This document shows positions 42,266 through 59,566 of a DNA stretch of 64,000 nucleotides, in pieces. The first letter of the stretch is position 1, and every line of letters starts with the position of its first letter. The DNA is from Geodermatophilus sp. DSM 45219 (lineage in GTDB: Bacteria > Actinomycetota > Actinomycetes > Mycobacteriales > Geodermatophilaceae). A model generated the notes under the pieces. The model saw nothing but the letters and a program-made list of their open reading frames with translations. It did not search any database and was not told where the DNA came from. The DNA lies in contig NZ_FNIQ01000003.1 in NCBI RefSeq assembly GCF_900104025.1, positions 1 through 64,000 of the forward strand, in the 5' to 3' direction. The position numbers were made by a program, and so were the translations under genes.

Positions 42266-43996
42266 CTACCGCACCGGCACGACGTCGGGGGCGCCCAGAC
42301 GAGCCGCGTCCGCCGTCTCGTCGTCAGGCTGCTGCTGCGCCTCGACCTCGGCGGCGACGCGGGCGCGGTAGTGCCGCACCTCCGACTCCTCGTGATCGCT
42401 GCTCCACCCGAGGAGCGGTGCCATGAGCCGGGCGACGACGGGGGCCGCAGCCACCCCGCGGTCCCAGGTCTCGATCGAGGCGCGGGTGCGGCGGGTGAGG
42501 ACGTCGTCCAGGTGGCGGGCGCCCTCGTGGGTCACCGCGTAGACCGCCTCGACCTGCAGGTAGTCGTCGGCGCCGGGCAGCGGCTGGGCCAGCGAGGGGT
42601 CGGCGTCGAGCAGGGCCAGGACCTCGTGGACCAGGGTGCCGTGGCGGCGGAGCAGGTGCTCGATCCGCGCCGCGTGCAGACCGCTGCGCTCGGCCAGCAG
42701 CCGGCGCTGGTTCCACAGCGCCGCGAAACCCTCCGCGCCCACCAGCGGGACGTCCTCGGTCACCGACGCCGGCACCTTCTCGTCGAGCGCCCGCACCGCC
42801 TCGTCCACGGCGTCGCGCGCCATGACCCGGTAGGTCGTGTACTTGCCGCCGGCGACCACCACGAGCCCGGGCACCGGGTGGGCGACCGTGTGTTCCCGCG
42901 ACAGCTTGCTCGTCACGTCGCTCTCACCGGACAGCAACGGCCGCAGCCCGGCGTAGACGCCCTCCACGTCCTCGGGGCGCAGCGGCTGGGACAGCACCCG
43001 GTTGGCCTGCTCGAGCAGGTAGCCGACGTCGCGGGCCGAGACCGCTGGATGGCTCTTGTCGAGGTGCCAGTCGGTGTCGGTGGTGCCGATGATCCAGTGC
43101 CGCCCCCACGGGATGACGAACAGGACGCTGGTCGCCGTACGCAGGATCAGCCCCGTCGAGCTGTGGATCCGGTCGCGGGGGATGACCAGGTGCACCCCCT
43201 TCGAGGCCCGCACCTGGAACTGGCCGCGGGTGGCGGCCAACGCCTGGGTGTCGTCGGTCCACACCCCGGTGGCGTTGACCACCTGCCGTGCCCGGACCCG
43301 GACGTCGCGACCGGTCTCCAGGTCGCGGACCACGGCCCCGGTCACGCGCTCGCCCTGGCGCAGCAGCTCGACGACGCGTGCCCGGTTGGCGCAGAGGGCA
43401 CCGTGAGCGGCGGCCGTGCGGGCGATGGCCATGGTGTGACGGGCGTCGTCGACCTGCGCGTCCCAGTACTGCACCGCGCCGACGAGCGCGTCGGGCCGCA
43501 GCGCGGGCGCCTCGCGCAGGGCCGCTCGCCGGGAGAGGTGACGGTGCCGCGGGAGCCCGCGGGCGGCGCCGGAGAGCAGCGACATCGTGTCGTAGAGGGT
43601 CACCCCGGCGCCCACGTAGCCGCGCTCCCACACCCGGTGCTGCAGCGGGTAGAGGAAGGGCACCGGGCGCACGAGGTGGGGGGCCAGGCGGCGCAGCAGC
43701 AGCGAGCGCTCCGCGAGCGCCTCGGCGACCAGGCCGAAGTCCAGCATCTCCAGGTAGCGCAGGCCGCCGTGGACGAGCTTGCTGCTGCGGCTGCTGGTGC
43801 CGCTGGCCCAGTCGCGGCCTTCGACCAGGCCGGTCCGCAACCCGCGGGTCACCGCGTCGAGGGCCGCGCCGCAGCCGACCACTCCCCCGCCGATCACCAG
43901 CACGTCGAGCTCGCTGTCCGCCAGGCCCGCGAGCGCCGCGTCCCGCGCCGCCGGGGAGAGGGCGCCCCGCGCCGATCCGGTGGGTGGTGCGGTCAC
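42266..43996 (-). CDS. GlpD-like FAD-dependent glycerol/polyol-phosphate dehydrogenase (second copy)
   Basis: 576 residues. FAD-binding LDVLVIGGGVVGCGAALDAVTRGL, then the GlpD block TSSRSSKLVHGGLRYLE and PFLYPLQHRVWERGYVGAGVTLYD, with GKYTTYRVMARDAVDEAV near the C-terminal domain. The enzyme would oxidise sn-glycerol 3-phosphate or a related alditol phosphate and pass electrons to the quinone pool. The same operon has another GlpD-like gene only about 30-35% alike by eye, so the two likely have different substrates. It is the last gene of the 15-gene cluster; GTG 43996 overlaps the HAD gene stop. Confidence 0.88.
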   Translation of the reverse strand: MTAPPTGSARGALSPAARDAALAGLADSELDVLVIGGGVVGCGAALDAVTRGLRTGLVEGRDWASGTSSRSSKLVHGGLRYLEMLDFGLVAEALAERSLLLRRLAPHLVRPVPFLYPLQHRVWERGYVGAGVTLYDTMSLLSGAARGLPRHRHLSRRAALREAPALRPDALVGAVQYWDAQVDDARHTMAIARTAAAHGALCANRARVVELLRQGERVTGAVVRDLETGRDVRVRARQVVNATGVWTDDTQALAATRGQFQVRASKGVHLVIPRDRIHSSTGLILRTATSVLFVIPWGRHWIIGTTDTDWHLDKSHPAVSARDVGYLLEQANRVLSQPLRPEDVEGVYAGLRPLLSGESDVTSKLSREHTVAHPVPGLVVVAGGKYTTYRVMARDAVDEAVRALDEKVPASVTEDVPLVGAEGFAALWNQRRLLAERSGLHAARIEHLLRRHGTLVHEVLALLDADPSLAQPLPGADDYLQVEAVYAVTHEGARHLDDVLTRRTRASIETWDRGVAAAPVVARLMAPLLGWSSDHEESEVRHYRARVAAEVEAQQQPDDETADAARLGAPDVVPVR

Positions 43997-44841
43997 CGTC
44001 CCCACCCGCCCGGCGGTAGCAGCTGGTCGACGCGCTCCAGGACGAAGGTGGGCCGGCGGTCGGGCGGGGCCGCCGCCACGGCCTCGCGCGTGCTCTCCCC
44101 CGTGAGCACCAGGGCGGAGTCGACCCCGGCATCGAGGGCCATCGCGATGTCGGTGTGCAGCCGGTCGCCGACCATGATGCAGTCCGGCGCGGCCAGTCCC
44201 AGGGCGTCGAGCGCGGTCTCGAGCATGAGGCGGTCCGGCTTGCCGACGTTGACCTCGCACCGCACCCCGGTGCTCGCCTCGATGGCGGCGGTGATGGCGG
44301 CCGCGTCCGGCTCCCCCCGCCCGACGCCGGTGGGGCAGTACGCGTCCGGGTTCGTGGTGACCAGCCGGGCGCGGCCGTGGGGCCACAGCGCGTCGAAGGC
44401 GATCTGCAGCTTGCGGTAGTCGAACGTGCGGTCGTAGCTGGCCACCACGACGTCGATCTCGTCGGGCTCCTCGGTGAGACGCAGGCCCGCCCGTTCCAGC
44501 GACCGTCGCAGCGGTTCCTCGCCGATGACGAAGATGCCGGCACCGGGGGCGTTGCCCACCAGCCAGGCGGTCATCGTGACCACCGTGTTCACGATGTGCG
44601 AGACCGGTGTCGGGAGGCCGAGCCGCTCGAGCTTCGCGGCGTACATCTCCGGGTCCCGGGTGGGGTTGTTGGACAGGAAGAGGGTCTGCCGCCCGAGCTC
44701 GCGCAGCCGGGTGACCAGCTCGGACGCCCCGGGCAGGAGTTCGTCACCCAGGTAGATCGTGCCGTCGAGGTCGAACAGGTAGCCCTCGTAGACCCGCGTC
44801 GGCGCGTCCGACGGCGCCACCGCGGCCGGGCCGCTGCTCAC
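43993..44841 (-). CDS. HAD-IIA family phosphatase
   Basis: 282 residues with all HAD-IIA motifs: YLFDLDGTIYLGDELLPGA (catalytic Asp pair), LFLSNNPTRDPEMYAAKL, NVGKPDRLMLETALDALGL and IMVGDRLHTDIAMALDAGVDSALVLTG (ends given). The family includes 4-nitrophenylphosphatase/NagD enzymes and the mycobacterial glycerol-3-phosphate phosphatase Rv1692. In this glycerol-phosphate-rich operon a polyol- or glycerol-phosphate phosphatase is the best guess. Both ends overlap neighbours by 4 nt. Confidence 0.9.
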   Translation of the reverse strand: MSSGPAAVAPSDAPTRVYEGYLFDLDGTIYLGDELLPGASELVTRLRELGRQTLFLSNNPTRDPEMYAAKLERLGLPTPVSHIVNTVVTMTAWLVGNAPGAGIFVIGEEPLRRSLERAGLRLTEEPDEIDVVVASYDRTFDYRKLQIAFDALWPHGRARLVTTNPDAYCPTGVGRGEPDAAAITAAIEASTGVRCEVNVGKPDRLMLETALDALGLAAPDCIMVGDRLHTDIAMALDAGVDSALVLTGESTREAVAAAPPDRRPTFVLERVDQLLPPGGWGR

Positions 44842-46352
44842 GGTCGCACCGCACCGGCCAGCCGCGGGAACAGCTCGCGCAGCGCCGGGTAGAGATCGCG
44901 GTACACCTCGTAGAGGCGGTCGTACTCCTCGGTGACCCGGGGATCGGGGGTGAAGCGGCGCGCGGTGCCGCTCATCGCGGTGGCCGCGTCGGGGATCGAC
45001 GGGTACAGCCCCGTCGCGGCGGCGGCGAGCATGCCGGCTCCCAGGCACGTGCTCTCCGGCTCCCGGACGACGACGACGTCGCGACGCATGACGTCGGCGA
45101 GGATCTGGCACCAGACCGCGCTGCGTGAGCCGCCGCCCAACGCCAGCACCTCCTCGATCGGCTTCTCGAGCACCTGCTCGGCTCCGGAGGTGAGCAGCCG
45201 CTGCTCGTAGGCGATGCTCTCCAGGAGCGCCCGGTAGACGTGCGACTTCCCGTGGGCGCCGGTGAGCCCGAGCAGTACCCCGCGGGCGTGGTGGTCCCAG
45301 TAGGGGGTCAGGGCGCCGGTCCAGTACGGGAGGACCAGCAACCCCTCGGCTCCGGGCGGGAGCTGTGCCGCCGCGGTCTCGAGGACCTGCTCCGGGGAGA
45401 GCTCGAGCCCCAGCGCCCGGGTGTCGACCCCGGAGAACTTCTCCACGAACCACTTGAGGTTGTGCGTCCCGCCCCCGATGAAGGTCTCCAGCGTGTAGGC
45501 GCCCGGCACCGCGGCCGCCAGCGTCCGGTACTCCCGCCCGTAGGAGTAGGTCTCGCTGTACGTCCCGGACACGACCCCCGTGCCCAGGTTGAGGTAGGCC
45601 CGCCCGGGCTCGGTGATGCCGGCGCCGAGCTGGGCGGACTGGCCGTCGCCGACACCGGCGACGACGGGCAGCGCGGGCGGCAGGCCGAGTCGCTGCGCCA
45701 CGTCGTCGGTGACGCTGCCGAGGACCGCACCGGGAGGGTGCAGTGCGCACAGCTGTGACCGGTCGAGGCCGACCTCGGCGAGCAGCCCGTCGTCGTAGTC
45801 GAACGTCGTCATGTCGACGAGGCCGAGGGGGTCGGCGCTGGCCCACGACGTGGCCCACGTCCCGGTGAGCCGGTGGACCAGGAACGCCTGGACGTCGACG
45901 ACCTTGCCGGTGCGCTGCAGGGTCTCGGGCTCGTGACGGGCCAGCCAGAGCAGCTTGTACCAGGCCGGCGTGGGGTTCGGCGGCTTGCCCGTGATGCGGT
46001 GCACCTCGGGGGTGCCGCGGCTCTCGACCTCCTCGACGGCCCGGCCGTCCATCCAGAGCATCGCCGGCCGGAGCGGCTTGCCGAGCCGGTCGAGGCAGGC
46101 GAAGGTCTCCCGCTGGTGGGTCACGCAGAGCGCGGCGATGCGGGACCCGTCGACGGTCTGGACCACCCGGCGGACCGCCGCGGAGGTGGCCGCCCACCAG
46201 TCCTCGGCGTTCTGCTCGCCCCAGCCCGGCCGCTGCTGCACCAGCTCGAAGTCGGCCCTCGCCTGGGCGACGGCCAGGCCTCCGGCGTCCCACACCACGG
46301 CCTTGGCCGCGGTGGTGGAGCAGTCCACCCCGATCACGTAGTCGCGGGTCAT
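44838..46352 (-). CDS. FGGY-family carbohydrate kinase (xylulokinase-like)
   Basis: 504 residues. ATPase core: YVIGVDCSTTAAKAVVWD (phosphate-1), ALCVTHQRETFACLD, MLWMDGRAVEEVE, LNLGTGVVSGTYSETY and EVLALGGGSRSAVWCQILADVM (adenosine motif, ends given). Closest to xylulokinase/erythritol-kinase-like FGGY members; the sugar or polyol is unknown. It differs clearly from the GlpK in the same operon, so two kinases with different substrates are encoded. The start overlaps the upstream stop (ATGA). Confidence 0.9.
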   Translation of the reverse strand: MTRDYVIGVDCSTTAAKAVVWDAGGLAVAQARADFELVQQRPGWGEQNAEDWWAATSAAVRRVVQTVDGSRIAALCVTHQRETFACLDRLGKPLRPAMLWMDGRAVEEVESRGTPEVHRITGKPPNPTPAWYKLLWLARHEPETLQRTGKVVDVQAFLVHRLTGTWATSWASADPLGLVDMTTFDYDDGLLAEVGLDRSQLCALHPPGAVLGSVTDDVAQRLGLPPALPVVAGVGDGQSAQLGAGITEPGRAYLNLGTGVVSGTYSETYSYGREYRTLAAAVPGAYTLETFIGGGTHNLKWFVEKFSGVDTRALGLELSPEQVLETAAAQLPPGAEGLLVLPYWTGALTPYWDHHARGVLLGLTGAHGKSHVYRALLESIAYEQRLLTSGAEQVLEKPIEEVLALGGGSRSAVWCQILADVMRRDVVVVREPESTCLGAGMLAAAATGLYPSIPDAATAMSGTARRFTPDPRVTEEYDRLYEVYRDLYPALRELFPRLAGAVRP

Positions 46353-47800
46353 CGGACGCCCGGCCTCGCGCCGGTGGCGGCCCGGTCGGCCCGGACCAGC
46401 ACCTCCGCCGCGTCGTCCGCGCCCCACCACCCCAGCGCGACGAGCAGGTCCACGACCGTCGAGCGGTTGCGCATCAGCGCGCAGTTGGCGACGGCCCAGT
46501 GCGCCAGCGCCGGGTCGACGGACGGATCGAGATCCGCGAGGAGCGCGGCCGCACCGGCGGCCCGCAGCTGTGCGGCGATGTCCGCGCTGGGGCGCAGCAG
46601 GCGGCGCAGCTCGGGCTCGACCCGGCCCCAGTCCGCGACGGCGGCCTCGACGGCCGGCCGGTGCGCCGCCCAGGTGGCGAGCTTGCGGGAGTAGTCGCTC
46701 CAGCACTCCGCCGTCACCTGGCTGCCCAGGTGCCCGAACGCCGACTCCACCCGTGCGCGGGCCACGTCGGAATCGGGGATGCGCACGGCCGGCGCTCCCT
46801 GGGCCATCCGGTCGAAGAGCAGCTCCCACGCCGCGGCCGCGATGACGGCGGCGGCGCCCACCTGCGCCCCGTGCAGGCCCATCGGCAGACCGTGCTCGCC
46901 GTGGTGCAGGTCGAGCATGTGGCTGACCAGGTGCTCGACGCCGGACAGGACGGCGGTGGTGCCCGAGACGCCGGTGGCGATGCCGCGGACGGCGAGTGCC
47001 CAGGTCAACCGCTCGACGGCCGCCGGGTCGGCGACCGCCACCCCCGGCGCCCACTCGTCGATGTCGGCGCCGACGGCGTCCAGCAGCTGGGTGGGGGCGG
47101 GGTGGAAGGTCGGGTCCACCTGCAGCAGCGCGCCCAGGCGCCAGTCGGCCGGCGCCGTGAACATCGAGGTGATCTCACCGAAGCCCGCCCGGTTCATGCG
47201 GGCCGGCGCCTCGCTGATCGTCTCGACGTCCGCGATGACCACGTCGGGCCAGCGGGAGGCGATCGTGCGCTTGACCCCCGCCCGGAGCACCACCGACACG
47301 TCGTCGGTGAAGCCGTCGACGGAGGCGGCGGTCTGGACCGCGGCGTGGGGGACCCCGCCGGCGTTGACGGAGGCCACCTTGCCGATGTCGGTGACGGTCC
47401 CTCCCCCGACGGAGACGATCGCATCGACCCCCTGCGCCGCGCGGGACGCCGTGTCGAGGGCCGCCTCGTCGGCGTGCAGGACCGGGTGCTCGTCGGTGAG
47501 CACCTCCGTGCGCACGTCGAAGCGCTGCTCCAGGGACGTGCGGACGGCGGTCTTGAGGTCGTCGCCGAGGCGCTGGATCGGGGTGGCGTCCACCAGCAGC
47601 AGCACGGTGGGTCGGCGGCCGTCGGTCGCCGGCCGGTCGTCGAGCAGGCCGGCGACGGCGTCGGCGACCCGGCCGATCCGGTCGCGGCCGAGCAGCACGG
47701 CGGAAATGCCGCAGGGCACCAGGGTGCGGTCGGGATCGGCGGCTGCCAGGTGGTCCTGGACCGCGCCGAGGTCCCCGAGCGGGAACACAGCTGTCGTCAT
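46349..47800 (-). CDS. sn-glycerol-1-phosphate dehydrogenase-like (AraM/EgsA type) protein
   Basis: 483 residues, longer than most AraM proteins (~400). NAD(P)-binding IVSVGGGTVTDIGKVAS, the TAASVDGFTDDVSVVLRAGVKR loop (ends given) and the metal-binding HMLDLHHGEHGLPMGLHGAQVG are visible. EgsA reduces dihydroxyacetone phosphate to glycerol-1-phosphate; AraM-like members in sugar operons may use other polyol phosphates. Here it sits among kinases and GlpD enzymes, so it may recycle or produce an alditol phosphate. Its ends overlap the neighbouring genes. Confidence 0.87.
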   Translation of the reverse strand: MTTAVFPLGDLGAVQDHLAAADPDRTLVPCGISAVLLGRDRIGRVADAVAGLLDDRPATDGRRPTVLLLVDATPIQRLGDDLKTAVRTSLEQRFDVRTEVLTDEHPVLHADEAALDTASRAAQGVDAIVSVGGGTVTDIGKVASVNAGGVPHAAVQTAASVDGFTDDVSVVLRAGVKRTIASRWPDVVIADVETISEAPARMNRAGFGEITSMFTAPADWRLGALLQVDPTFHPAPTQLLDAVGADIDEWAPGVAVADPAAVERLTWALAVRGIATGVSGTTAVLSGVEHLVSHMLDLHHGEHGLPMGLHGAQVGAAAVIAAAAWELLFDRMAQGAPAVRIPDSDVARARVESAFGHLGSQVTAECWSDYSRKLATWAAHRPAVEAAVADWGRVEPELRRLLRPSADIAAQLRAAGAAALLADLDPSVDPALAHWAVANCALMRNRSTVVDLLVALGWWGADDAAEVLVRADRAATGARPGVR

Positions 47801-48660
47801 GACACTCCTTGCTGCACGGGCAGGGCCGCTCCGGTGCGGACGGCCGGTCGGGGGAGGTCGGGCGCGGCCTCGCGGGCCCGGTCGAGCAGGTCGCCGGGGA
47901 CGGCAGCGGGGTGCAGGTCCAGCCGGCGGCCCAGTGCCGCGAGGACGGCGGAGCGCACCTCCTCGACGCGCACGCCGGGCGCGACGTCGGTGACCGCTCC
48001 GGCGGTGCGCGCGTCGACGGTCAGGCCGAGTGCCCGGTAGGTCGCCTCGACCACCCGGCGGACCGGCTCGGCGTCGGTCACCAGCAGCACCGCACCGAGG
48101 AACCACCCACCGCGGACCACCCGCTGGGCGGTCCCGGCCAGCTTGACCCGGCCCCCGGCGTTGACGCTGAACCGGCCGGGGCAGTACTCGTCGGCCACCG
48201 GTCCGACCGCTGCCGCGACCCCCACGGTGGCCAGGGCCTCGACGAGGACCTCGGCGAGCTCCACGAACCGTCGGGTGACGCCACCCCGGGGTTCGTCCTC
48301 GGCCACCACCAGGTCCAGGCACAGGGCGCCCTCGTGGTAGACCGCGGCGCGGCCGCCGGGTGCACGCACCACCGGGGCGAACCCGTGCGCGGCGCTGACC
48401 TCGGTGGCCGCGCCGAAGCCGGGGCTCAGCGTGTCGCGCCGGCTGAAGGCCGTGGCGGGCGCCGGCCGGTAGAGCCGCAGCCACCCGCCGGTGCCCTGCG
48501 CGGCGACCTGCCGGAGCAGGGCCGGACCGATGCCCACGTCCACCGCGGGAGGGGCACCGTCCGGACCGGTGAGCACGCGTACCCCGCCGGTCGAGGGCGC
48601 CAGCGTGCTCGCGGCTGCGCGCCGGTCGCCGGGGTCGCCCACGCGGCTCGTCGGTGCCAC
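47797..48660 (-). CDS. Lipoate-protein ligase family protein
   Basis: 287 residues. The LplA/LipM fold is shown by VVRAPGGRAAVYHEGALCLDLV (the RxxGGxxVxH motif), PVADEYCPGRFSVNAGGRVKLAGTAQRV (catalytic Lys in VKLAGTAQ) and a C-terminal helical part. It would attach lipoate or octanoate to the lysine of the free-standing lipoyl protein encoded in the same operon, making the dehydrogenase complex self-sufficient. GTG 48660 lies 5 nt after the E2-domain stop. Confidence 0.88.
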   Translation of the reverse strand: MAPTSRVGDPGDRRAAASTLAPSTGGVRVLTGPDGAPPAVDVGIGPALLRQVAAQGTGGWLRLYRPAPATAFSRRDTLSPGFGAATEVSAAHGFAPVVRAPGGRAAVYHEGALCLDLVVAEDEPRGGVTRRFVELAEVLVEALATVGVAAAVGPVADEYCPGRFSVNAGGRVKLAGTAQRVVRGGWFLGAVLLVTDAEPVRRVVEATYRALGLTVDARTAGAVTDVAPGVRVEEVRSAVLAALGRRLDLHPAAVPGDLLDRAREAAPDLPRPAVRTGAALPVQQGVS

Positions 48661-48665
48661 CGCGC

Positions 48666-49352
48666 TCAGTCCTGCGTCCCGGCGGTCTCGAGCTCCTGGC
48701 GCAGCCGCGCGAGCATGCCGGCGCCCGTGGCGCCGTCGACCGCCCGGTGGTCGCAGGTGAGCGTCAGCTCGGCGACGGGCCGCACCGTCACCTGCCCGTC
48801 GCGGACGACCGGGCGCTCGATGGTGGAGCCCACGGCCAGGATGCCCACCTGGGGCGGGTTGAGGATCGCGTCGAACCGGTCGATGCCCAGCATCCCGAGG
48901 TTGGACACGGTGAACGTGCCGCCCTGGATGTCGGCCATGGACAGCCGGCCGGCCCGCGCCCGCGTCACGACGTCCTTGCGGCGCTCGCCGACCTCGGCCA
49001 GCGAGAGGGACTCCACGCCGTGGACGACCGGCACGGTCAGGCCCGCGTCGGTGGCCACCGCCAGCCCCAGGTTGACCGCGTCGTGCAGCGTGACGGTCTC
49101 GTCGGCGAAGTGGGCGTTGAGGCCGGGCGAGGCCTGCAGCGCCCGGGCGGTGCCCAGCAGCAGTGCGTCGGTGACCGTCGCCCCGGGGACCCGCCGGCCG
49201 ACGGTCAGGGCGGTCGCCATGTCGACCGCCACCGTCAGGTGGAAGACCGGCGCGGCCCAGGCCTCGACCATGCGGCGCGCGGCGACGCGGCGGATGCCCT
49301 TCAGCGGCACGGTCCTGACCCCGGCGGCGAGGACCTCCTCGGTCCCGGTCAC
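48666..49352 (-). CDS. Stand-alone 2-oxoacid/acetoin dehydrogenase E2 catalytic (acyltransferase) domain
   Basis: 228 residues containing only the E2 catalytic domain: VPLKGIRRVAARRMVEAWAAPVFHLTVAVD (entry), FTVSNLGMLGIDRFDAILNPPQVGILAVG (ends) and the active site TCDHRAVDGA with His202 and Asp206. There is no lipoyl domain and no peripheral-subunit-binding domain, which normally occupy the first 150-200 residues of an E2. The lipoyl domain is encoded separately four genes upstream (53447-53692). GTG 49352 overlaps the aldolase stop. Confidence 0.92.
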   Translation of the reverse strand: MTGTEEVLAAGVRTVPLKGIRRVAARRMVEAWAAPVFHLTVAVDMATALTVGRRVPGATVTDALLLGTARALQASPGLNAHFADETVTLHDAVNLGLAVATDAGLTVPVVHGVESLSLAEVGERRKDVVTRARAGRLSMADIQGGTFTVSNLGMLGIDRFDAILNPPQVGILAVGSTIERPVVRDGQVTVRPVAELTLTCDHRAVDGATGAGMLARLRQELETAGTQD

Positions 49353-50236
49353 CGGGTCGCCGCTGCCAGCTCGTGCGGCGCCTCGACGGCGGAGGGATCC
49401 GCAGCTCCTGCGCAGCCGTAGAGCCGCATCTTGGCGATCGTCGCCTCGGTCATGAGCTCCCGGCCGCGTTGCATCGCCTCCTCGAGCTGGCGGTCGCCCT
49501 GGGCCCAGGTGGACTCGATGCCCTGGCGGAACGCCTTGCGGAGATCGGTGTCGGCGTTGAGCTTGTGCACGCCGTTGGCCACCGCGGTGCGGACGTCGTC
49601 GTCGGGGACGCCGGAGGCGCCGTGCAGCACGAGGGGGACGGGCACGACGGCGCGGATCTCCCTGATGCGCTCGACGGCGAGCGGCGCGGGTTCGGCCAGC
49701 GGCACGCCGTGCACCACGCCGACGGAGATCGCCAGGGTGTCCACACCGGTCTCGGCCACGAAGCGTTCGGCCTCGGCGACGTCGGTGTAGTAGGCGGCCC
49801 AGTCGACCGGTTCGTCGGCGTCCGGGATGCGGCCGAGCTCGGCCTCCACCGGCAGCCCGAACTCGTGGGCGATCTCGACGATGCGGCGCGTGGTGCGGAT
49901 GTTCTCCTCGAAGGGCAGGTGCGCCCCGTCGTACATCACCGAGTCGAACCCCAGCCGGATCGCCTCGATCACCTCGGCGTAGGAGCCGTGGTCGAGGTGG
50001 ATGACGTAGCGGGCCGAGGACTCCTCGGCGTTGCGCCGGGTCATCTCCAGCGCCTTGCGCAGGCCCATGTGCGGGATGATCGCCCGGCCGACCTGCAGGA
50101 ACACCGGCGCCTGCGCCCGTTCCGCGGCCTGGAGCAGTGCCTGGGTCGTCTCGTCGTTGTGCATGTTGAAGGCCCCGACGGCGTAGCCGCCCCGACGGGC
50201 GTCCTCCACGAGTTGGCGGGGGTCGGCGGTGCTCAC
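49349..50236 (-). CDS. Class II (zinc) fructose/ketose-bisphosphate aldolase family
   Basis: 295 residues. The fold and zinc ligands are visible: YVIHLDHGSYAEVIEAIRLGFDSVMYDGAHL (ends; His83 and Asp region), SVGVVHGVPLAEP and LVLHGASGVPDDDV. It belongs to the FbaA/GatY/KbaY group that cleaves ketose 1,6-bisphosphates or 1-phosphates to dihydroxyacetone phosphate and an aldehyde. In this operon it would act on the product of the kinases and GlpD enzymes. GTG 50236 overlaps the GlpK stop. Confidence 0.9.
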   Translation of the reverse strand: MSTADPRQLVEDARRGGYAVGAFNMHNDETTQALLQAAERAQAPVFLQVGRAIIPHMGLRKALEMTRRNAEESSARYVIHLDHGSYAEVIEAIRLGFDSVMYDGAHLPFEENIRTTRRIVEIAHEFGLPVEAELGRIPDADEPVDWAAYYTDVAEAERFVAETGVDTLAISVGVVHGVPLAEPAPLAVERIREIRAVVPVPLVLHGASGVPDDDVRTAVANGVHKLNADTDLRKAFRQGIESTWAQGDRQLEEAMQRGRELMTEATIAKMRLYGCAGAADPSAVEAPHELAAATR

Positions 50237-51768: not shown

Positions 51769-51771
51769 GGC

Positions 51772-53442
51772 TCACCGCTCCTTCGCCGGCGCGCCGGCGC
51801 CGAAGGTGGCCGAGCGGGGACCGGACTCGTCGGGAACGGCGAGCCGCTCCAGCCAGGTGCGGTACCCGGCGATCTCGGCCGCGCGGCGGTCGTCGTCCCA
51901 GCCCAGGTGGTCGCCGAGCACCCCGGCGGCCTCCTCCACGACCTCGAGACCGTGGCCCGGCTCGAAGGCCAGCAGCACCCGCCGCGCGAGCACGTCGGTC
52001 AGCGTGACCGCGAGGTCCTCCTCCACGGCCAGGACCAGCTCGGCCGCCAGCAGGCCGCTCGGCTCGTGCACCACCGCGGCCCACGCGGGGTTCCGCGCGG
52101 CCAGCTCCTGCACCCGGCCGGCCCGGCTGCCGTAGAAGCGGGCCAGCCGCTGCACGGTGGCCTCCGGCAGCGGGACCTGCGTCTCCGCCCCACCGGCCTG
52201 CCGGGCCCCGGGCAGCGGCCGGGACTTCGTGGGACACGGAGGCGCCGTGCGCCCGAGCCGGCGGAACACGTCGTCGACCGCGTCCTGGGCCAGCTGGCGG
52301 TAGGTCGTGAGCTTGCCGCCCACGACGGTCACCAGGCCGGGCAGCCCGGTGTCGGCGTGGTCGTGGAGCACGTGCGACCGGGTGACCGAGGACTCGGCCT
52401 TGTCCGGCACGTACGGGAGCGGCCGGACGCCGCTGTAGGTGTAGAGGACGTGGTCGGGGGTGAGGGCGGCGCCGGGGACCAGCGCGTTGACCTCCTCGAG
52501 GAGGTACTCCTCCTCACCGATGTCGCACCGGGCCTCGGACGGGTCCTGCTCGAACCGGATGTCCGTGGTCCCGATGAGGTACCGCCCGAGCCAGGGGATG
52601 ACCAGGACCAGGCGGCCGTCGCGCTGCGACTCGTAGTAGACGACGTCCTCCGGGGCTCCGGGGAACGGGTCGACGACGAGGTGGCTGCCCTTGGTGCCCC
52701 CGTTGAGCCGGGGTTGCCCCCGGTCGGTGCCGGACAGCACGCGGTCGATCCAGGGGCCGGCGACGTTGTAGACCACCGACCCGCGGACCTCGTGCGCGGC
52801 GCCGCTCAGCACGTCGGTGCAGCGGACGCCGACGACCCGCCCGTCCTCGACGAGGGGTGCGTCCACGCGCGTGTGCGTGCGGATCTCGGCCCCGTTGTCG
52901 CGGGCGTCCACGGCGAGCTCGACGCAGAGGCGTTCGGCCAGCTCGACCTGCCCGTCGTAGAACAGGGCCGCCCCCGTCATCCCCTCGGTCGCCATCCCCG
53001 TGAAGCGCTCGCGGGCCTCCTGCGCCGAGAGGATGCGGTGCCGCGGCGGCGACTTGTCCCACGACAGGACGTCGTAGGTGATCATCCCGAGGCGGACCAG
53101 CCAGCGCGGACGGGTGTTGCGCCGGTAGAACGGCATCATCAGCGGCACCGGCCGCACCAGGTGCGGGGCGAGCCGGAACAGCCGTTCCCGCTCGCGGAGG
53201 GACTCCCGCACCAGCCGGACGTCGTACTGCTCCAGGTAGCGGAGACCGCCGTGCACCAGCCGCCCCGACCAGGCGGACACGCCGCTGCAGACGTCCTCCT
53301 GCTCCAGCAGCACGACCCGCAGCCCGCGCAGGGCGGCGTCCTGGGCGATGCCGACCCCGTTGATGCCCGCTCCCACGACGACGAGGTCGTAGGAGCCGTC
53401 GTCCCGAGACCTGACCCCACCCGTGGAACCCGCGCGCGACAC
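51772..53442 (-). CDS. glpD: GlpD-like FAD-dependent glycerol-3-phosphate/polyol-phosphate dehydrogenase
   Basis: 556 residues. FAD site YDLVVVGAGINGVGIAQDAALRGL, SGVSAWSGRLVHGGLRYLEQYD, PLMMPFYRRNTRPRWLVRLGM and GKLTTYRQLAQDAVDDVF. Residues after ~380 form the C-terminal helical domain. It oxidises sn-glycerol 3-phosphate or an alditol phosphate to the keto form, feeding electrons to the membrane. GTG 53442 lies 4 nt after the lipoyl gene stop and gives a short lead of 15 residues before the FAD strand. Confidence 0.9.
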   Translation of the reverse strand: MSRAGSTGGVRSRDDGSYDLVVVGAGINGVGIAQDAALRGLRVVLLEQEDVCSGVSAWSGRLVHGGLRYLEQYDVRLVRESLRERERLFRLAPHLVRPVPLMMPFYRRNTRPRWLVRLGMITYDVLSWDKSPPRHRILSAQEARERFTGMATEGMTGAALFYDGQVELAERLCVELAVDARDNGAEIRTHTRVDAPLVEDGRVVGVRCTDVLSGAAHEVRGSVVYNVAGPWIDRVLSGTDRGQPRLNGGTKGSHLVVDPFPGAPEDVVYYESQRDGRLVLVIPWLGRYLIGTTDIRFEQDPSEARCDIGEEEYLLEEVNALVPGAALTPDHVLYTYSGVRPLPYVPDKAESSVTRSHVLHDHADTGLPGLVTVVGGKLTTYRQLAQDAVDDVFRRLGRTAPPCPTKSRPLPGARQAGGAETQVPLPEATVQRLARFYGSRAGRVQELAARNPAWAAVVHEPSGLLAAELVLAVEEDLAVTLTDVLARRVLLAFEPGHGLEVVEEAAGVLGDHLGWDDDRRAAEIAGYRTWLERLAVPDESGPRSATFGAGAPAKER

Positions 53443-53446
53443 CGGA

Positions 53447-53692: not shown

Positions 53693-53776
53693 GACTTCCT
53701 CTTCTCGGTCGGTCGTGCGGATGTCGGTCCGGCCGGCGCTGGGGGCACGGGGACCGTGGAGCTCGGTGCGGAGGTC

Positions 53777-54838
53777 TCAGCGCGGGGCGAGCCGGGCGGA
53801 CTCCGTGCGGGCCATGGAGTCGGCGAGGTCGGGCTCCGGCAGGTCGAGGACCCGGCGGACGGCGGCCTCGATGCTGGAACGGTTGGGGTACATCTGCTTC
53901 TCGAGCGCCGGGCTGAACGGGATCTGCATGTCGGGGGTGGTCACCCGCACGATCGGCCGGGTGAGCGAGTCGAAGGCGTGCTCGGCCACGATCGCGGCGA
54001 TCTCGCTCGCGGCACCGCAGGTCCGGTGCGCCGGGTCGGCGATGACCAGCCGCCCGGTGCGGCGGACCGAGGCGAAGATGCCCTCGACGTCCAGGGGCAC
54101 CAGGGTGCGGGGGTCGAAGACCTCGACCGAGATCCCCTCCGCCTGGAGCTTGTCGGCAGCTGCGGCCGCCTCGACGACCGCGTTGGAGATGGCGACGACC
54201 GTGACGTCGTCGCCCTCCCGCACCGTGCGCCCGACACCGAAGGGGATCCGGTACTCCTCCTCGGGGACCTCCTCCTTCATGCCCCACAGCAGGCAGGCCT
54301 CGAAGGTCAGCACGGGGTCGTCGGAGTCGACCGCGGTGCGCAGCAGGCCCTTGGCGTCGGCCGGGCTGGCCGGGACGGCGACCTTCAGGCCGGGGACGTT
54401 CATGAACATCGGGTAGGGCCGGTCGGAGTGGTGCGCGCCGGTGTTCAGCCCGTAGAACATCGCCGACCGGAACACCACCGGCATCGAGGCCTGGCCACCG
54501 AACATGTACCGGTTCTTGGCGACCTGGTTCACGAACTGGTCCATGGCCATGTAGAGGAAGCTCGAGTACGACAGGTCCACGATCGGGCGCAGCCCGGTCA
54601 TCGCCGCGCCGGCGGCCGCCCCCACGATGACCTCCTCGGAGATGGGGGTGTTGCGGATGCGGTTGCGGCCGTAGCGCTGCAGGAAGTCGCCCTCGGCGGC
54701 GCGCGACTTCCCGGACCCGCCCGTCGTCCCGTAGACGTTGGCCTCGACGTCCTCGCCGATGATGACCACCCGCTCGTCGGCGTCCATCGCCTCGCGCTGG
54801 GCGGCGCCGATCGCGCCGAGGTAGCTCATGACGGTCAT
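53777..54838 (-). CDS. 2-oxoacid/acetoin dehydrogenase E1 beta subunit
   Basis: 353 residues; transketolase-like pyrimidine domain (IIGEDVEANVYGTTGGSGKSR, TPISEEVIVGAAAGAAMTGLRPIVDL, ends given) and the C-terminal domain with VFDPRTLVPLDVEGI and PDMQIPFSPALEKQMYP. It forms the alpha2beta2 E1 with the upstream gene and decarboxylates a 2-oxoacid, or cleaves acetoin, onto thiamine diphosphate. The start overlaps the E1 alpha stop by 4 nt, so subunits are made in equal amounts. Confidence 0.93.
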   Translation of the reverse strand: MTVMSYLGAIGAAQREAMDADERVVIIGEDVEANVYGTTGGSGKSRAAEGDFLQRYGRNRIRNTPISEEVIVGAAAGAAMTGLRPIVDLSYSSFLYMAMDQFVNQVAKNRYMFGGQASMPVVFRSAMFYGLNTGAHHSDRPYPMFMNVPGLKVAVPASPADAKGLLRTAVDSDDPVLTFEACLLWGMKEEVPEEEYRIPFGVGRTVREGDDVTVVAISNAVVEAAAAADKLQAEGISVEVFDPRTLVPLDVEGIFASVRRTGRLVIADPAHRTCGAASEIAAIVAEHAFDSLTRPIVRVTTPDMQIPFSPALEKQMYPNRSSIEAAVRRVLDLPEPDLADSMARTESARLAPR

Positions 54839-55830: not shown

Positions 55831-55910
55831 TCCGGCTGTCTCCAGGGGGTCGAACGGGCAGGACGGGATCCCAGGTCCGGTGCGGACGTGGGTCGTGGAC
55901 GGGGAGGAGG

Positions 55911-56939
55911 TCAGGCTCGTTTCTTGATGCCGGCCCGGTCGGTGAGGACGGCGGCGAGGATGACGACGCCGATGACGACGGCCTGCAGGTTCGGGTTGAT
56001 GCCGAGCAGGGCCAGCCCGTTGTTGAGCACCCCGATGATCAGCAGGCCGACGAAGGCCCCGCCCATGGAGCCGACGCCGCCGGCCAGGCTCGCGCCACCG
56101 ATGACGACCACGGCGATGACGATGAGCAGGTAGTTGGCCCCGGCCGTCGGCTGGGCGGAGTCGAGCCGGCTGATGTTGATCCACCCGGCGACCGCCGCCA
56201 GCGCCCCGGCGATGACGTAGACCATGGTCTTGGCCTGGCGCACCGGGAGGCCGGACAGCCGCGCGACCTCCTCGTTGCCGCCGATCGCGTACAGCGCCCG
56301 CCCACCCGGTCGATAGCGCAGCCAGAAGCCGAGGACGAGGAAGATCGCCACCAGCAGCAGTCCCTGCAGCGGGATGCCCAGGACGTCGGCGGAGGTCAGG
56401 TTCCCGAACCAGCTCGGGAAGTTGTTGATCGTGCTGCCCTGGGTGATGTACAGCGCCAGGCCGGTGCACGCCGACATCGTCGCCAGCGTGGCGACGAAGG
56501 GCTGCACCCGGCCGTAGGTGGCCAGCAGCCCGTTGACCAGCCCGACGAAGGCCCCCAGCAGCAGGCCGGCCACGAGGGCCAGGCCGAAGGGGATCTCGTG
56601 CACCCGGTACAGCCAGGCCGTGAACATCATGGTGAGCGCCATGTTCGCGGCCACCGAGAGGTCGATGCCGCCGATGAGGATCACCAGGGCCGCGCCGGCA
56701 GCCAGGATGCCGTAGTCGGAGATCTGGCTGATCAGGTTGGTGAGGTTCCGCTGGGTGAAGAAGAACTCCGACAGGAACGACATGGCGATCACCATCACCA
56801 CCAGCCCGCCGAGGGGCCCGCCGATGCTCTGGAGCCGGGTCCGGGCCACGCCGGCCAGCTGGCGCAGTCCGGAGCCGGAGGAGCCGCGGGACTCGGTGTC
56901 GGGGGGCGCCGTCGCCGGGTCCTGGTGGGTGCTGCTCAT
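55911..56939 (-). CDS. Ribose-type ABC transporter permease
   Basis: 342 residues, BPD_transp_2 (RbsC) family. A 30-residue polar N-terminus is followed by about 9-10 membrane segments; signature elements are LIGGIDLSVAANMALT, LATMSACTGLALYITQG, AIGGNEEVARLSGLPVRQ (EAA-like coupling loop) and VVIGGASLAGGVGSMGGAFVG. It would form the channel with the RbsA-type ATPase and the lipoprotein. Carries sugars or polyols; specificity is set by the binding protein. Confidence 0.92.
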   Translation of the reverse strand: MSSTHQDPATAPPDTESRGSSGSGLRQLAGVARTRLQSIGGPLGGLVVMVIAMSFLSEFFFTQRNLTNLISQISDYGILAAGAALVILIGGIDLSVAANMALTMMFTAWLYRVHEIPFGLALVAGLLLGAFVGLVNGLLATYGRVQPFVATLATMSACTGLALYITQGSTINNFPSWFGNLTSADVLGIPLQGLLLVAIFLVLGFWLRYRPGGRALYAIGGNEEVARLSGLPVRQAKTMVYVIAGALAAVAGWINISRLDSAQPTAGANYLLIVIAVVVIGGASLAGGVGSMGGAFVGLLIIGVLNNGLALLGINPNLQAVVIGVVILAAVLTDRAGIKKRA

Positions 56940-57010
56940 GGTGGGGCTCCCTCCCCGGGGTGGCCGGGTGTCGTTGGAGGTGTCGTGCCGGGGGACGACG
57001 TGGAACCGGC

Positions 57011-58537
57011 TCACGACGACGCCTGCGGGACGGCGAGCTGCATGACGGTCTCGGAGTCGGCCTGCGCGCGGTCGAGGACGTCGCGCTGCCTGCCCCCGGA
57101 CATCACCAGGACCCGGTGGGAGAGCCCGAGCACCTCCTCGAGCTCCGAGGAGACGACGACCACCGCCACGCCGGAGGCGGCCAGGCGCCGGACGATCTCG
57201 TAGATCGCCATCTTGGCGCCGACGTCCACGCCCCGGGTGGGCTCGTCGAGGATCAGCACCTTCGGTGTCCTGACCAGCCACTTCGCCAGCAGCACCTTCT
57301 GCTGGTTGCCGCCGGAGAGGCCGACCGAGGGGATGTCGAGCGAGCCCCGGATGTCGAACTCCGTACGGCTCTTCGCTGCGATCCGCGCGATCTTCGAGCG
57401 GGTGACCAGGCCGCGCCGCCCGAGCGACTTCTCCCAGGGCGTGCAGATGTTCTCGGCGCTGCTGCGGCCGAGCAGCAGGCCCTGCCCCTTGCGGTCCTCG
57501 GGGACCATCACGATGCCGGCGGCGATCGCGTCGGTGGGCCGCTTGAGCGACACCACCTCGCCGTCGACGAGGACCTCGCCCCGGTCGAACCTGTCCACCC
57601 CGGCGATCGCGCGGACCACCTCGGTGCGGCCGGCTCCGACCAGTCCGGCGATCCCCAGGATCTCGCCCTCGCCCACGCTGAAGGAGACGCCCTCGAAGGC
57701 GTCGGCGCGGGCCAGCCCGCGGACCTCCAGGACCACCCGGTCGCGGGCCGGCTCGGGCGCGTGGTGCTCGAACGTGAAGTCCCGGCCGACCATCGCCCTG
57801 ACCAGGTCGTCCTGCGGCACCCGGCCGGACTGCCACGCCTGGACGAGCCGGCCGTCGCGCAGGCAGACGATCTGCTGGGCGACCTCGCGGACCTCCTCGA
57901 GGCGGTGGGAGATGTAGACGACGCCCACGCCCTGGCTGCGCAGGACCTCGATCCTGCCGAGCACCTTGTCGGTCTCGTGTGCGGTGAGGGAGGCGGAGGG
58001 CTCGTCGAAGATGACGTAGCGGGGCTTCCGGGAGATCGCCTTGGCGATCTCGATGCCCTGCTGGGTCGCCATCGACAGCCCCCGGACCGGTCGCCGCGGG
58101 TCCAGGTCGATGCCGAGGACCTCCAGGGCGGCCGCCGCCTCGCGGTTCATCCGCGCGGTGTCCACCCGGCCGCCGCTGGTCGGCAGCCGTCCCAGGAAGA
58201 TGTTCTCCGCCACCGAGAGGGCCGGGACCATCCGGATCTCCTGGTGGATGAGCGCCACGCCGCGCTCCAGGGCGTCGTGCGGCGAGTGGGGCCGGTACGC
58301 CTCACCGTCCAGCGTCATCGAGCCGGAGTCCGGGATGACGATGCCCGCGAGGATCGAGGAGAGCGTCGACTTCCCGGCCCCGTTCTCGCCGATGAGGCCG
58401 AGGACCTCGCCGGCCGCCACGCTGAGGCTGACGGACTTCAGGACCGTCACCCCGGCGTAGGACTTCACGAGATCGGTACAGGCGAGGGCCCTGCTGTCGC
58501 TCCGCGACGAGACCGGGGCCGGGTCGTCGACTGCCAT
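57011..58537 (-). CDS. Ribose-type ABC transporter ATPase with two cassettes
   Basis: 508 residues. First cassette: Walker A LIGENGAGKSTLSSILAG, Walker B VIFDEPSASLTAHE. Second cassette: degenerate Walker A GLVGAGRTEVVRAIAG, signature LSGGNQQKVLLAKWL and Walker B LILDEPTRGVDVGAKM, exactly the RbsA/MglA layout in which one site is degenerate. It lies between the permease and binding-protein genes, 71 and 39 nt from them. Confidence 0.94.
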   Translation of the reverse strand: MAVDDPAPVSSRSDSRALACTDLVKSYAGVTVLKSVSLSVAAGEVLGLIGENGAGKSTLSSILAGIVIPDSGSMTLDGEAYRPHSPHDALERGVALIHQEIRMVPALSVAENIFLGRLPTSGGRVDTARMNREAAAALEVLGIDLDPRRPVRGLSMATQQGIEIAKAISRKPRYVIFDEPSASLTAHETDKVLGRIEVLRSQGVGVVYISHRLEEVREVAQQIVCLRDGRLVQAWQSGRVPQDDLVRAMVGRDFTFEHHAPEPARDRVVLEVRGLARADAFEGVSFSVGEGEILGIAGLVGAGRTEVVRAIAGVDRFDRGEVLVDGEVVSLKRPTDAIAAGIVMVPEDRKGQGLLLGRSSAENICTPWEKSLGRRGLVTRSKIARIAAKSRTEFDIRGSLDIPSVGLSGGNQQKVLLAKWLVRTPKVLILDEPTRGVDVGAKMAIYEIVRRLAASGVAVVVVSSELEEVLGLSHRVLVMSGGRQRDVLDRAQADSETVMQLAVPQASS

Positions 58538-58576
58538 GTCTCTCCTCCGCTGGTGCTCGATCGTCCGGGGCGGCTG

Positions 58577-59566
58577 CTAGACGTTCGGCCCGTAGAACTG
58601 GACCGGGTCGACCTCGCTGACGTTCTCCTGGGTCACCAGCACCGTGTCCTGGTACTGCAGCTCGGGGAGCTCCTCGCCGTTGGCGGCCGCGATCGCGTCA
58701 CGGACGGCCAGCTGGCCCATGACGTAGGGCACCTGGGCCTGCGTCGCGTCGGTCAGCCCGTCCTCGATGGCCTGGACCATGGTCGGGAACCCGTCGATGC
58801 CCACGGAGAAGATGTCGCGGCCGGCGTCCTGGGCGGCCTTGGCGGCGCCCAGGGCCATCGCGTCGCTCTCCCCGAAGATGGCGCTCATCTGGGGGTTGGC
58901 CTGGAGCATGTTCTGGGCCGCGTTGTAGCCCTCGGTCTCGTCCCAGTTGGCCGCCTGCTCGGCGACGACCTCGATGCCCGGGTTGGCGTCGATCGCGTTC
59001 TGGCAGCCCTCGCTGCGCTGCAGCTCGGCCGTGGAGCCGAGGACGCCCCGCAGGATGCCGATCTGCCCCGTGCCACCCATCTGCTCGAACATCCAGGTGC
59101 ACAGGTCCTCGGCCGCCTTGACGCTGTCCGTGGCGATGTAGGTGGCCAGCTCGCCCTCGTCGCCCTCCGGCTTCTGGTCGACGGCGATGACCGGGATGTC
59201 CGCCTGGTTCGCGGCCCGGACCCCGGCCGCGGCCGCGGTGGCGTCCTGCGCCGTGAAGATCAGCGCGTCCACGCCCTGGGTGATCAGGTTGTTGACCTGG
59301 TTCACCTGCTGCGTCGAGTTGTTGTCCGCGGAGAGCAGGATGATCTCGACGCCCTCCTCCGCGGCGGCGGCCTCGATGCCGTCGGCCTCGGCGATGTAGA
59401 AGAGCGACTTCTGGTCGGCGATCGAGACCCCGATGCGGAGCGGCTCGCCGCCGCCGTCTCCACCGCCGCCTCCGCCGCCGGAGTCGCCGCCGCCACAGGC
59501 GGTGGCCAGGGTCGCGACGACCGCGGTCGTGACCGCCGCGCGGGTGATCCGAGTAGAGCGCCTCAC
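58577..59566 (-). CDS. Ribose/polyol-type ABC substrate-binding lipoprotein
   Basis: 329 residues. Signal peptide VRRSTRITRAAVTTAVVATLATACG with lipobox LATAC (Cys24), then a Gly-rich tether (GGGDSGGGGGGGDGGGE) that would span to the domain. The Peripla_BP_4 fold follows (RIGVSIADQKSLFYIAEADG, DALIFTAQDATAAAAGV, ILRGVLGSTAELQRSEG, GIDGFPTMVQAIEDG). Its pocket residues cannot be assigned to a sugar by eye. It is the first gene of the operon, and GTG 59566 follows a predicted operator region. Confidence 0.94.
   Translation of the reverse strand: MRRSTRITRAAVTTAVVATLATACGGGDSGGGGGGGDGGGEPLRIGVSIADQKSLFYIAEADGIEAAAAEEGVEIILLSADNNSTQQVNQVNNLITQGVDALIFTAQDATAAAAGVRAANQADIPVIAVDQKPEGDEGELATYIATDSVKAAEDLCTWMFEQMGGTGQIGILRGVLGSTAELQRSEGCQNAIDANPGIEVVAEQAANWDETEGYNAAQNMLQANPQMSAIFGESDAMALGAAKAAQDAGRDIFSVGIDGFPTMVQAIEDGLTDATQAQVPYVMGQLAVRDAIAAANGEELPELQYQDTVLVTQENVSEVDPVQFYGPNV

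Follow-up and report, generated by a model that had tools for sequence, protein, structure and literature searches.

The window analysed here, with a G+C content of 74.8%, is the 64,000-nucleotide stretch at positions 1 to 64,000 of contig NZ_FNIQ01000003.1 from Geodermatophilus sp. DSM 45219. Positions 42266 to 59566 are occupied by 15 co-directional genes on the minus strand, in which an importer, kinases and dehydrogenases of polyol-phosphate type are combined with a thiamine diphosphate (ThDP)-dependent E1 dehydrogenase, a free lipoyl carrier protein and an E2 catalytic domain. Comparison with other genomes provides strong evidence that 14 of these genes, all except that for a second GlpD, form one unit rather than a chance grouping. 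Searches of Pfam and NCBIfam identified all 15 families, which are listed below with four neighbouring genes; numbers of organisms refer to the 26 organisms that were compared.

58577..59566, minus strand: RbsB-like lipoprotein substrate-binding protein (SBP); PF13407, 1.7e-56; 14 of 26 organisms
57011..58537, minus strand: RbsA/AraG-like sugar ATP-binding cassette (ABC) ATPase; PF00005
55911..56939, minus strand: RbsC-like permease; PF02653
54835..55830, minus strand: E1 alpha, ThDP dehydrogenase of acetoin/pyruvate type; PF00676, 4.3e-78; cluster clade with SH-aLRT 99
53777..54838, minus strand: E1 beta; PF02779/PF02780
53447..53692, minus strand: free-standing lipoyl carrier protein (LIP), 81 aa; PF00364, 1.7e-18; lysine in 24 of 24 rows
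51772..53409, minus strand: GlpD1, FAD polyol-phosphate dehydrogenase; PF01266 and PF16901
50233..51768, minus strand: FGGY1, GlpK-like kinase; GlpK equivalog, 536 bits against a cut-off of 590
49349..50236, minus strand: class II ketose-phosphate aldolase of fructose-bisphosphate aldolase (FBA) type; PF01116, 4e-83; closest solved chains 8q57 and 8q58
48666..49352, minus strand: E2 catalytic domain alone, 228 aa; PF00198, 4.4e-65, the sole family match
47797..48660, minus strand: LplA/LipM-like lipoate or octanoate transferase; PF21948, 6.8e-13
46349..47800, minus strand: EgsA/AraM-like glycerol-1-phosphate-type dehydrogenase, 483 aa; PF13685; 9h4x, 99 bits
44838..46352, minus strand: FGGY2, XylB-like kinase; TIGR01312, 290 bits, cut-off 380
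43993..44820, minus strand: HAD-IIA phosphatase, phosphoglycolate/pyridoxal-phosphate phosphatase-like; TIGR01460, 120.5 bits, passing the cut-off of 100
42266..43996, minus strand: GlpD2, co-directional, outside the conserved unit; PF01266 and PF16901; 1 of 26 organisms
41455..42201, minus strand: RibB (3,4-dihydroxy-2-butanone 4-phosphate (DHBP) synthase), stand-alone; PF00926, 8.9e-76; 1 of 26 organisms
59660..60679, plus strand: SorC/DeoR-family sugar-binding regulator, divergent; PF04198, 1.6e-46
60871..62112, plus strand: microsomal-type epoxide hydrolase (EHN), second operon; PF06441; 5f4z, 260 bits
62230..63177, plus strand: BKACE-fold enzyme, second operon; PF05853, 4.9e-46

The tight packing described in the original prediction is borne out: the successive intergenic distances from SBP to GlpD2 are 39, 71, 80, -4, 84, 37, 3, -4, -4, 5, -4, -4, 17 and -4 nt, with six overlaps of 4 nt and a largest gap of 84 nt. 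At 75% G+C, a scan for sigma-70 promoter and terminator patterns is weak evidence; it gave no promoter-like site and a single weak terminator-like site on the minus strand, within the start of RibB, and the total number of sites equalled the shuffled expectation.

Conservation of the arrangement was studied by scanning genome contigs with an alignment of the aldolase, which gave 18 loci, and adding loci seeded with E1 and E2, such that 26 organisms were compared at identity thresholds of our own choosing. The aldolase was found in 25 of them, a figure that is partly a product of the aldolase seeding, while E1alpha, E1beta and LIP were each present in 24, and EgsA and FGGY2 each in 23. GlpD1, E2 and LplA were each found in 15 organisms, HAD in 13, FGGY1 in 12 and LipA in five; SBP, ABC and the permease in 14 each; M20 in 15, BKACE in 11, and EHN and SBP3 in ten each; DRL in five; and GlpD2 and RibB in one each. 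Absences carry little weight for L042, L046, L056 and L133, among others, where the stretch is cut off by the end of the contig or flank, and two genomes were left out: G323 (E1alpha 65% identical), in which the contig stops directly after the lipoyl gene, and G1015, whose coordinates are those of L040. Among the 24 organisms with a cluster-type E1, the stretches read contain EgsA and FGGY2 in 23, the exception being N. leprariae (L056), and the aldolase also in 23, the contig ending first in the other (G1157). Separation of the polyol and dehydrogenase modules in relatives is therefore not what is found for this core, and the proposal of one catabolic unit joining a polyol import, kinase and dehydrogenase set to an E1/lipoyl/E2 complex is supported. 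Eight genomes were reached through E1alpha or E2 (G115, G132, G139, G196, G218, G323, G1106 and G1157); in all six of these with enough contig the aldolase lies by the E1-LIP genes or in the same operon, hence the association does not depend on the aldolase seed alone.

The closest counterparts are three genomes of one genus, Nakamurella (G115, G132 and G139, the last being Nakamurella endophytica), which carry the 14 genes from SBP to HAD in the order of the window with SorC beside SBP; the same block was also found in a metagenome-assembled genome (L045). When 146 genomes, including that of the window, were searched for E2, a close copy (66-67% identity) was found only in the window's own genome and these three, the next match by E-value having 44% identity. 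Rearranged versions are found in Arthrobacter/Pseudarthrobacter, Rubrobacter, Shinella, Aureimonas and other alphaproteobacteria. The Pseudarthrobacter order is SBP-ABC-PERM-EgsA-FGGY2-HAD-E1a-E1b-LIP-FBA-E2, followed by M20-PERM-ABC-PERM-SBP3-EHN-BKACE, then SorC, then GlpD1-FGGY1-LplA-LipA (PERM, permease; E1a and E1b, E1 alpha and beta). Seven alphaproteobacterial loci have the order EgsA-FGGY2-SorC-E1a-E1b-LIP-FBA-LplA, and Rubrobacter has E1a-E1b-LIP-SBP-ABC-PERM-GlpD1-FGGY1-FBA with M20, BKACE, an aquaporin, an alpha/beta hydrolase, FGGY2 and EgsA around it. That the association survives such rearrangement in two phyla strongly supports a single function. The steady core, in Actinomycetota and Pseudomonadota alike, is E1alpha, E1beta, the free lipoyl protein and the class II aldolase with EgsA-FGGY2, whereas GlpD1/FGGY1, E2, LplA/LipA and HAD are frequent yet replaceable. 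GlpD1/FGGY1 lie behind a SorC gene of their own at the opposite end of the locus in Pseudarthrobacter, and were not seen in the stretches read from several alphaproteobacterial loci. The single joint unit originally proposed thus holds for the core, with GlpD1/FGGY1 as a semi-independent module and E2, present in 15 organisms, as an optional member.

The unit is uncommon. An E1alpha of at least 65% identity was found in four of the 396 genomes sampled across the phylum (the window's own, G196, G218 and G323), four of 295 genomes in the family of a Pseudarthrobacter host, two of which were known seeds, and two of 397 genomes from the order that includes Aureimonas, which were both seeds. Three of 644 plasmid records have an E1alpha match (76-80% identity), all three carrying the association, and the plasmid-borne hosts include Shinella and Rubrobacter. 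This rare and scattered distribution, in part on plasmids, suggests that the locus moves horizontally.

The downstream border differs from that first proposed. Of the 15 families, 14 keep their order in Nakamurella and the metagenome-assembled genome, and GlpD2, included originally as a second GlpD of the unit, does not: it occurs in a single organism of the 26, with relatives at 72-73% identity in two genomes of the same genus. RibB starts 64 nt behind GlpD2 in the same direction, making it the 16th gene in the row; it is at most 59% identical to the other RibB domains of the genus, and a full RibBA is encoded elsewhere in the genome (contig C7). No match to GlpD2 or RibB was found in the 2-3.9 kb behind HAD in the three Nakamurella genomes. 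Both genes are local and not part of the conserved unit, and RibB was rejected as a general explanation of the source of the E1 substrate, being found in one of 26 organisms, while a link of ribulose-5-phosphate to the pathway through RibB is possible in this genome. Two further riboflavin-type genes were observed. In N. endophytica a RibD-type gene lies directly behind the cluster on the opposite strand (L036, 17507-18880), perhaps by chance, and a third RibB-like frame on contig C11 (L035, 9599-10960), which lacks the RENEGD-like acidic motif and has an incomplete GTP cyclohydrolase part, looks degenerate.

The proteins of the E1 system retain their expected motifs, counted here as alignment rows, of which L036 and L047 belong to one genome. 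Both GDGA.NQG and ENN are present in all 25 E1alpha rows, TPISE is found in 23 of 25 E1beta rows with TPIAE in the other two, and DHRxxDG occurs in 16 of 16 E2 rows. The lipoyl lysine is conserved in 24 of 24 rows when the alignment is inspected; a regular expression matched just 16 of these, its pattern being too narrow. In both PDB and NCBIfam, E1 matches pyruvate/2-oxoacid dehydrogenases best, although its scores with the NCBIfam pyruvate dehydrogenase (PDH) models fall below cut-off (TIGR03182, 319 of 394; NF006667, 290 of 321), and the lipoyl protein scores best with an acetoin-dehydrogenase E2 model (77 bits, cut-off 307). Pfam found no lipoyl or E3-binding domain in the E2 protein, and no E3 gene among the scanned genes of the block. 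As E2 is often absent, the constant partner of E1 is the free lipoyl carrier rather than E2, an arrangement that recalls GcvH.

A quick maximum-likelihood tree of concatenated E1alpha and E1beta (48 rows, 47 different; no bootstrap; branch support by the Shimodaira-Hasegawa-like approximate likelihood ratio test, SH-aLRT; long-branch warning from the program for L039 with L105) places the cluster E1s in a single clade of 23 rows, 22 of them distinct (SH-aLRT 99). This is nested in a larger group consisting mostly of E1-lipoyl systems (29 rows, SH-aLRT 99); E1s of acetoin/butanediol operons come next outward, at an open fork (SH-aLRT 92), while the one PDH-labelled row, L105, is distant. E1s adjacent to DXR-II genes stand apart from the cluster clade, six forming one clade (100) and L091 a weakly placed branch. 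At many sites that acetoin-type and DXR-II-type E1s both conserve, the cluster E1s are altered, for instance A-N to E114-S115 in alpha and Q to H136 in beta, which is consistent with a different substrate. Sister sets of E1alpha, E1beta and a free lipoyl protein, with no E2 seen nearby, were also noted at five loci. L060 adjoins a pyrroloquinoline quinone (PQQ) dehydrogenase and short-chain dehydrogenases/reductases (SDRs), L089 is beside a luciferase-like monooxygenase, L090 and L092 are near SDR and amidohydrolase genes, with MR_MLE also at L090, and L093 is near a GntR regulator. They point to a candidate wider family of free-carrier E1 systems.

The remaining enzymes mostly resemble characterised families without reaching their most specific models. 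FGGY1 fails the GlpK equivalog TIGR01311, which two other genes of the genome pass, and passes the broader GlpK subfamily model NF000756 (549 against 498 bits); GlpD1 narrowly misses NF008899 (356.5 bits, cut-off 360); and the EgsA-like protein is far below the glycerol-1-phosphate dehydrogenase model NF002022 (107 bits against 413), with its histidine motifs conserved in 22 of 22 rows. FGGY2 scores higher with the XylB model (290 bits) than with that for LsrK (188 bits), and 13 of 14 HAD rows have D.DGT. The aldolase is below the class II FBA equivalogs (258 and 260 bits; cut-offs 343 for TIGR01859 and 423 for NF009497) and passes the subfamily model TIGR00167 (238.5 against 215.6); H.DHG is found in 25, HG.SG[VI] in 21 and N[AGV]DT[DE] in 23 of its 26 rows. 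An argument against a bisphosphate substrate from the missing C-terminal basic residue, which would bind the C6 phosphate, was dropped, as this residue is absent in the window and Nakamurella rows and present (AGK or AGR) in most others.

The locus also does not end at the 15 genes first delimited. Across the SorC gene, whose product scores 88 bits with the LsrR model, a plus-strand operon missed in the original prediction reads EHN-BKACE-SBP3-PERM-ABC-PERM-M20, thus including another ABC importer, and runs beyond the window to about contig position 70385 (contig C6, 63997-70385; L064), the M20 gene being beta-Ala-His-dipeptidase-like. EHN (81-87% identity) and BKACE (78-91%) rank with the most strongly conserved proteins encoded here, both being 81-91% identical in Nakamurella and Arthrobacter-type hosts, and this operon belongs to the locus. 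EHN contains the PF06441 domain, and HGWP, GGDWG and GGHF, which we take to be epoxide hydrolase motifs, occur in 11 of 11 rows (ten distinct genes); in four organisms another alpha/beta hydrolase takes its place (ABHrub in three, ABH305 in one). The BKACE-fold protein may be a second epoxide-opening enzyme, its best solved match being cis-epoxysuccinate hydrolase (49 bits), with a KCE chain close behind (45 bits) and KCE as best NCBIfam model (73 bits, cut-off 382), all of which are low scores.

A second association concerns DXR-II. DRL genes (PF21135) lie upstream of EgsA-FGGY2 in L049 and L050, and at 11 loci a DRL gene accompanies a separate E1a-E1b-E2 set; as E1 was the route to most of these loci, the count cannot be read as a frequency. 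They are found in Shinella, a Sinorhizobium (S. meliloti) Rm41 plasmid, Rhizobium L51/94, Nitratireductor, Pseudoroseomonas, Rhodobacter (L057, which also holds an FBA of the cluster family), G413, Pseudarthrobacter GA104, G218 and G196 (twice, once contiguous with the present locus), and in G218 and one of the G196 loci DRL and E1 are separated by a SorC gene. A PF21135 search of ten genomes or records, mostly cluster hosts, gave ten matches, seven of which have an E1 pair no more than about 10 kb away. The Shinella and L049 DRLs match the solved Brucella DXR-II (3upl) over nearly their full length, at 705 and 505 bits respectively. DG[ST]KTM is present in 14 of 16 DRLs (all but L143 and L146); its threonine corresponds to T229 in B. 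abortus numbering, which PMC3847144 reports to be invariant in DXR-II but substituted in the DLO1 and DLO2 families, such that these DRLs carry the mark of DXR-II. The text of that paper does not contain the word stem 'catabol'. In E. coli, mutant PDH E1 (aceE suppressor mutants) and mutant RibB are reported to supply 1-deoxyxylulose 5-phosphate (DXP) (PMC3424233), and the aceE mutants make a reaction between E1 and DXP plausible. It would make sense for DXR-II with E1-E2 to convert methylerythritol phosphate (MEP) to DXP and this to acetyl-coenzyme A (acetyl-CoA) and glyceraldehyde-3-phosphate. DRL genes near an acetoin-dehydrogenase-like E1 were noted in L049, L050, L057, L062, L063, L066, L091, L099, L106, L135, L142, L144 and L147, some with glucitol-type phosphotransferase system or ABC importers; DRL-E1 loci are candidate methylerythritol catabolic operons.

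The interpretation starts from what is observed directly, namely the gene set, its conserved association, the mostly intact motifs and the position of E1 in the tree. We tentatively favour, with rather less than even confidence, a horizontally moving locus for the catabolism of related small branched or deoxy polyols resembling methylerythritol, the substrate and the order of steps being inferred. EHN would convert epoxides to vicinal diols or polyols, the Rbs-type ABC importer would bring the polyol in and the FGGY kinases would phosphorylate it. The EgsA (glycerol-1-phosphate) and GlpD (glycerol-3-phosphate) dehydrogenase families have opposite glycerol-phosphate stereochemistry; judging from these specificities, EgsA and GlpD1 could oxidise the carbon next to the phosphate in opposite configurations. 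The ThDP E1 would then cut the phosphorylated alpha-ketol in the manner of acetoin dehydrogenase, passing the acyl half to the free lipoyl carrier and, through E2, to CoA, with acyl-CoA and an aldehyde or triose phosphate as products. The class II aldolase would take a ketose-1-phosphate branch to dihydroxyacetone phosphate (DHAP), and LplA/LipA would charge the carrier.

Several observations weigh against this reading. The alpha-ketol as E1 substrate is suggested by family membership only, and the scheme does not account for the roles of BKACE and M20. No E2 could be found near E1, even at an E-value of 10, in the seven alphaproteobacterial and two Rubrobacter loci, which leaves CoA transfer there unexplained. 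N. leprariae lacks EgsA-FGGY2 in the 20.8 kb read, and in L057, where a GlpD1 fragment is present and the extracted aldolase is without all three motifs, the aldolase is paired with a DXR-II-type E1. A Thermus row annotated acoA (L104) falls with the PDH-labelled row, far from both the cluster and the DXR-II-type E1s. Furthermore, no DRL was found in the window genome or the three Nakamurella genomes by the search that was positive in seven of ten others, and the DXR-II-linked E1s lie outside the cluster clade; for these two reasons we do not claim that E1 of the window genome acts on DXP.

Among the alternatives, it is unlikely that E1, the lipoyl protein and E2 constitute an ordinary 2-oxoacid dehydrogenase whose substrate is an acid produced further down the pathway. 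The PDB and NCBIfam matches of E1 agree with this, as do the L090 and L092 sister sets, whose SDR and amidohydrolase genes, with MR_MLE in the former, could yield 2-oxo acids; however, no recognised enzyme of the set converts a polyol phosphate to a 2-oxoacid, E1 lies closer in the tree to the E1s of acetoin operons than to the sole PDH-labelled row, and the DXR-II-E1-E2 operons favour a ketol. Of the substrates first suggested for the thiamine complex (a 2-oxoacid, acetoin or an aldehyde), the 2-oxoacid is hence less likely than an alpha-ketol.

Slightly less probable is a more specific version in which the superlocus would encode the entire catabolism of C5 isoprenoid-type polyols, such as 2-C-methylerythritol and its stereoisomers, and of their epoxide precursors, for example isoprene epoxydiols. 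Epoxide hydrolases would give 2-methyltetrols, the kinases with EgsA/GlpD, or a reversed DXR-II, would produce 1-deoxyketose-type alpha-ketol phosphates, and E1 with its carrier would run the chemistry of DXP synthase in reverse to acetyl-CoA and triose phosphate. Were this so, the native role of DXR-II in bacteria with DXR-I would be catabolic.

We consider it doubtful that the aldolase instead supplies E1 and the free lipoyl protein with an aldehyde, such as glycolaldehyde or lactaldehyde, which they would oxidise to an acyl thioester. The presence of the aldolase with E1-LIP in 23 of 24 organisms, the dispensability of E2 and the PQQ dehydrogenase adjoining one sister pair would fit, but we know of no E1 that takes free aldehydes as its main substrate, and the DXR-II-E1 operons are without this aldolase in the stretches fetched, except in L057. 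A variant erythritol/threitol pathway, in which FGGY1 and GlpD1 would act as EryA and EryB to form a tetrulose phosphate from which E1 removes a C2 unit as glycolyl-CoA, seems slightly more doubtful. The importer, kinase, dehydrogenase and SorC regulator match the Ery layout as given originally, and FGGY1 is GlpK-like yet under a cut-off that two other genes pass; against this, GlpD1 and FGGY1, found in 15 and 12 of the 26 organisms compared with 23 for EgsA-FGGY2, do not belong to the steady core, and Pfam returned no Ery-type isomerase or epimerase for the locus, none having been sought by name or with its own models.

Two explanations are very improbable. Chance co-transcription of a glycerol-type operon with an acetoin-type dehydrogenase, to which the separation of GlpD1/FGGY1 in some genomes lends a little colour, is largely refuted already by the core being kept across two phyla despite changes of order, and by a close E2 being found in just three of 145 other relatives, all three with the whole block. 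Conversion of ribulose-5-phosphate by RibB to DHBP, an acetoin analogue, for E1/E2 to split this C4 ketol into acetyl-CoA and glycolaldehyde phosphate fits the place of RibB behind GlpD2 and the presence of a full RibBA elsewhere, but a gene present in one organism of 26 cannot explain a conserved unit.

If the favoured reading of a branched or deoxy polyol locus is true, it represents an undescribed route of polyol breakdown, from phosphorylated ketol to acyl-CoA by a ThDP/lipoyl system with a free carrier, common to two phyla and sometimes plasmid-borne. The question of why many bacteria retain DXR-II beside DXR-I would become testable, the DXR-II-E1-E2 operons suggesting methylerythritol catabolism, and the analysis names specific genes, hosts and substrates for assays. 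Individually, the enzyme families are all known. Their combination, the use of a free-carrier E1 within a polyol locus and the pairing of DXR-II with E1 appear undescribed in the open-licence literature of PubMed Central, where, as originally stated, no pathway with the full set was found, nor any description of the DXR-II-E1-E2 operons as a system; subscription papers and preprints lie outside this search.

Comparison with known systems reveals partial likenesses. The B. subtilis araL-araM genes likewise place an HAD-IIA phosphatase and an EgsA/AraM-type dehydrogenase near a sugar kinase, but have no E1 complex or FBA-type aldolase. The Lsr autoinducer-2 pathway, whose end products are DHAP and acetyl-CoA, resembles the cluster in its Rbs-type ABC importer, FGGY kinase and LsrR/DeoR-type regulator; in contrast, no LsrF or LsrG is recognised in the cluster, and FGGY2 scores higher as XylB than as LsrK. 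Ery operons share the Rbs-type ABC importer, FGGY kinase, GlpD-like dehydrogenase and SorC regulator, whereas in the cluster no Ery-type isomerase is recognised, the aldolase and the E1/lipoyl system are found in its stead, and EgsA-FGGY2 is the core pair.

Acetoin dehydrogenase (AcoAB with E2 and E3) is the nearest named group, but the cluster E1s form a clade of their own within the E1-lipoyl systems, the fork to the acetoin rows is open and the Thermus acoA row falls elsewhere. The cluster E1alpha and E1beta are in the same tree neighbourhood as the acetoin type, and the lipoyl protein scores best with its E2 model. Unlike that system, the cluster encodes its lipoyl domain and E2 core on separate genes (81 and 228 aa), E2 often being absent, and its E1 is changed at many positions conserved in the acetoin type; no acetoin or butanediol genes were found among the scanned cluster genes, and no E3-binding domain. 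The DXR-II-E1-E2 operons, whose hosts include Rubrobacter, differ in having E1s outside the cluster clade, a full-length E2, no EgsA and, except in L057, no FBA-type aldolase. By contrast, they resemble the cluster in setting E1/E2 beside an enzyme interconverting MEP and DXP, mostly with a sugar importer or SorC and in some cases with GlpD/FGGY, and in G196 one is contiguous with the present locus. These operons, which occur beside the locus or elsewhere in its host genomes, are the clearest analogue of the cluster E1 system.

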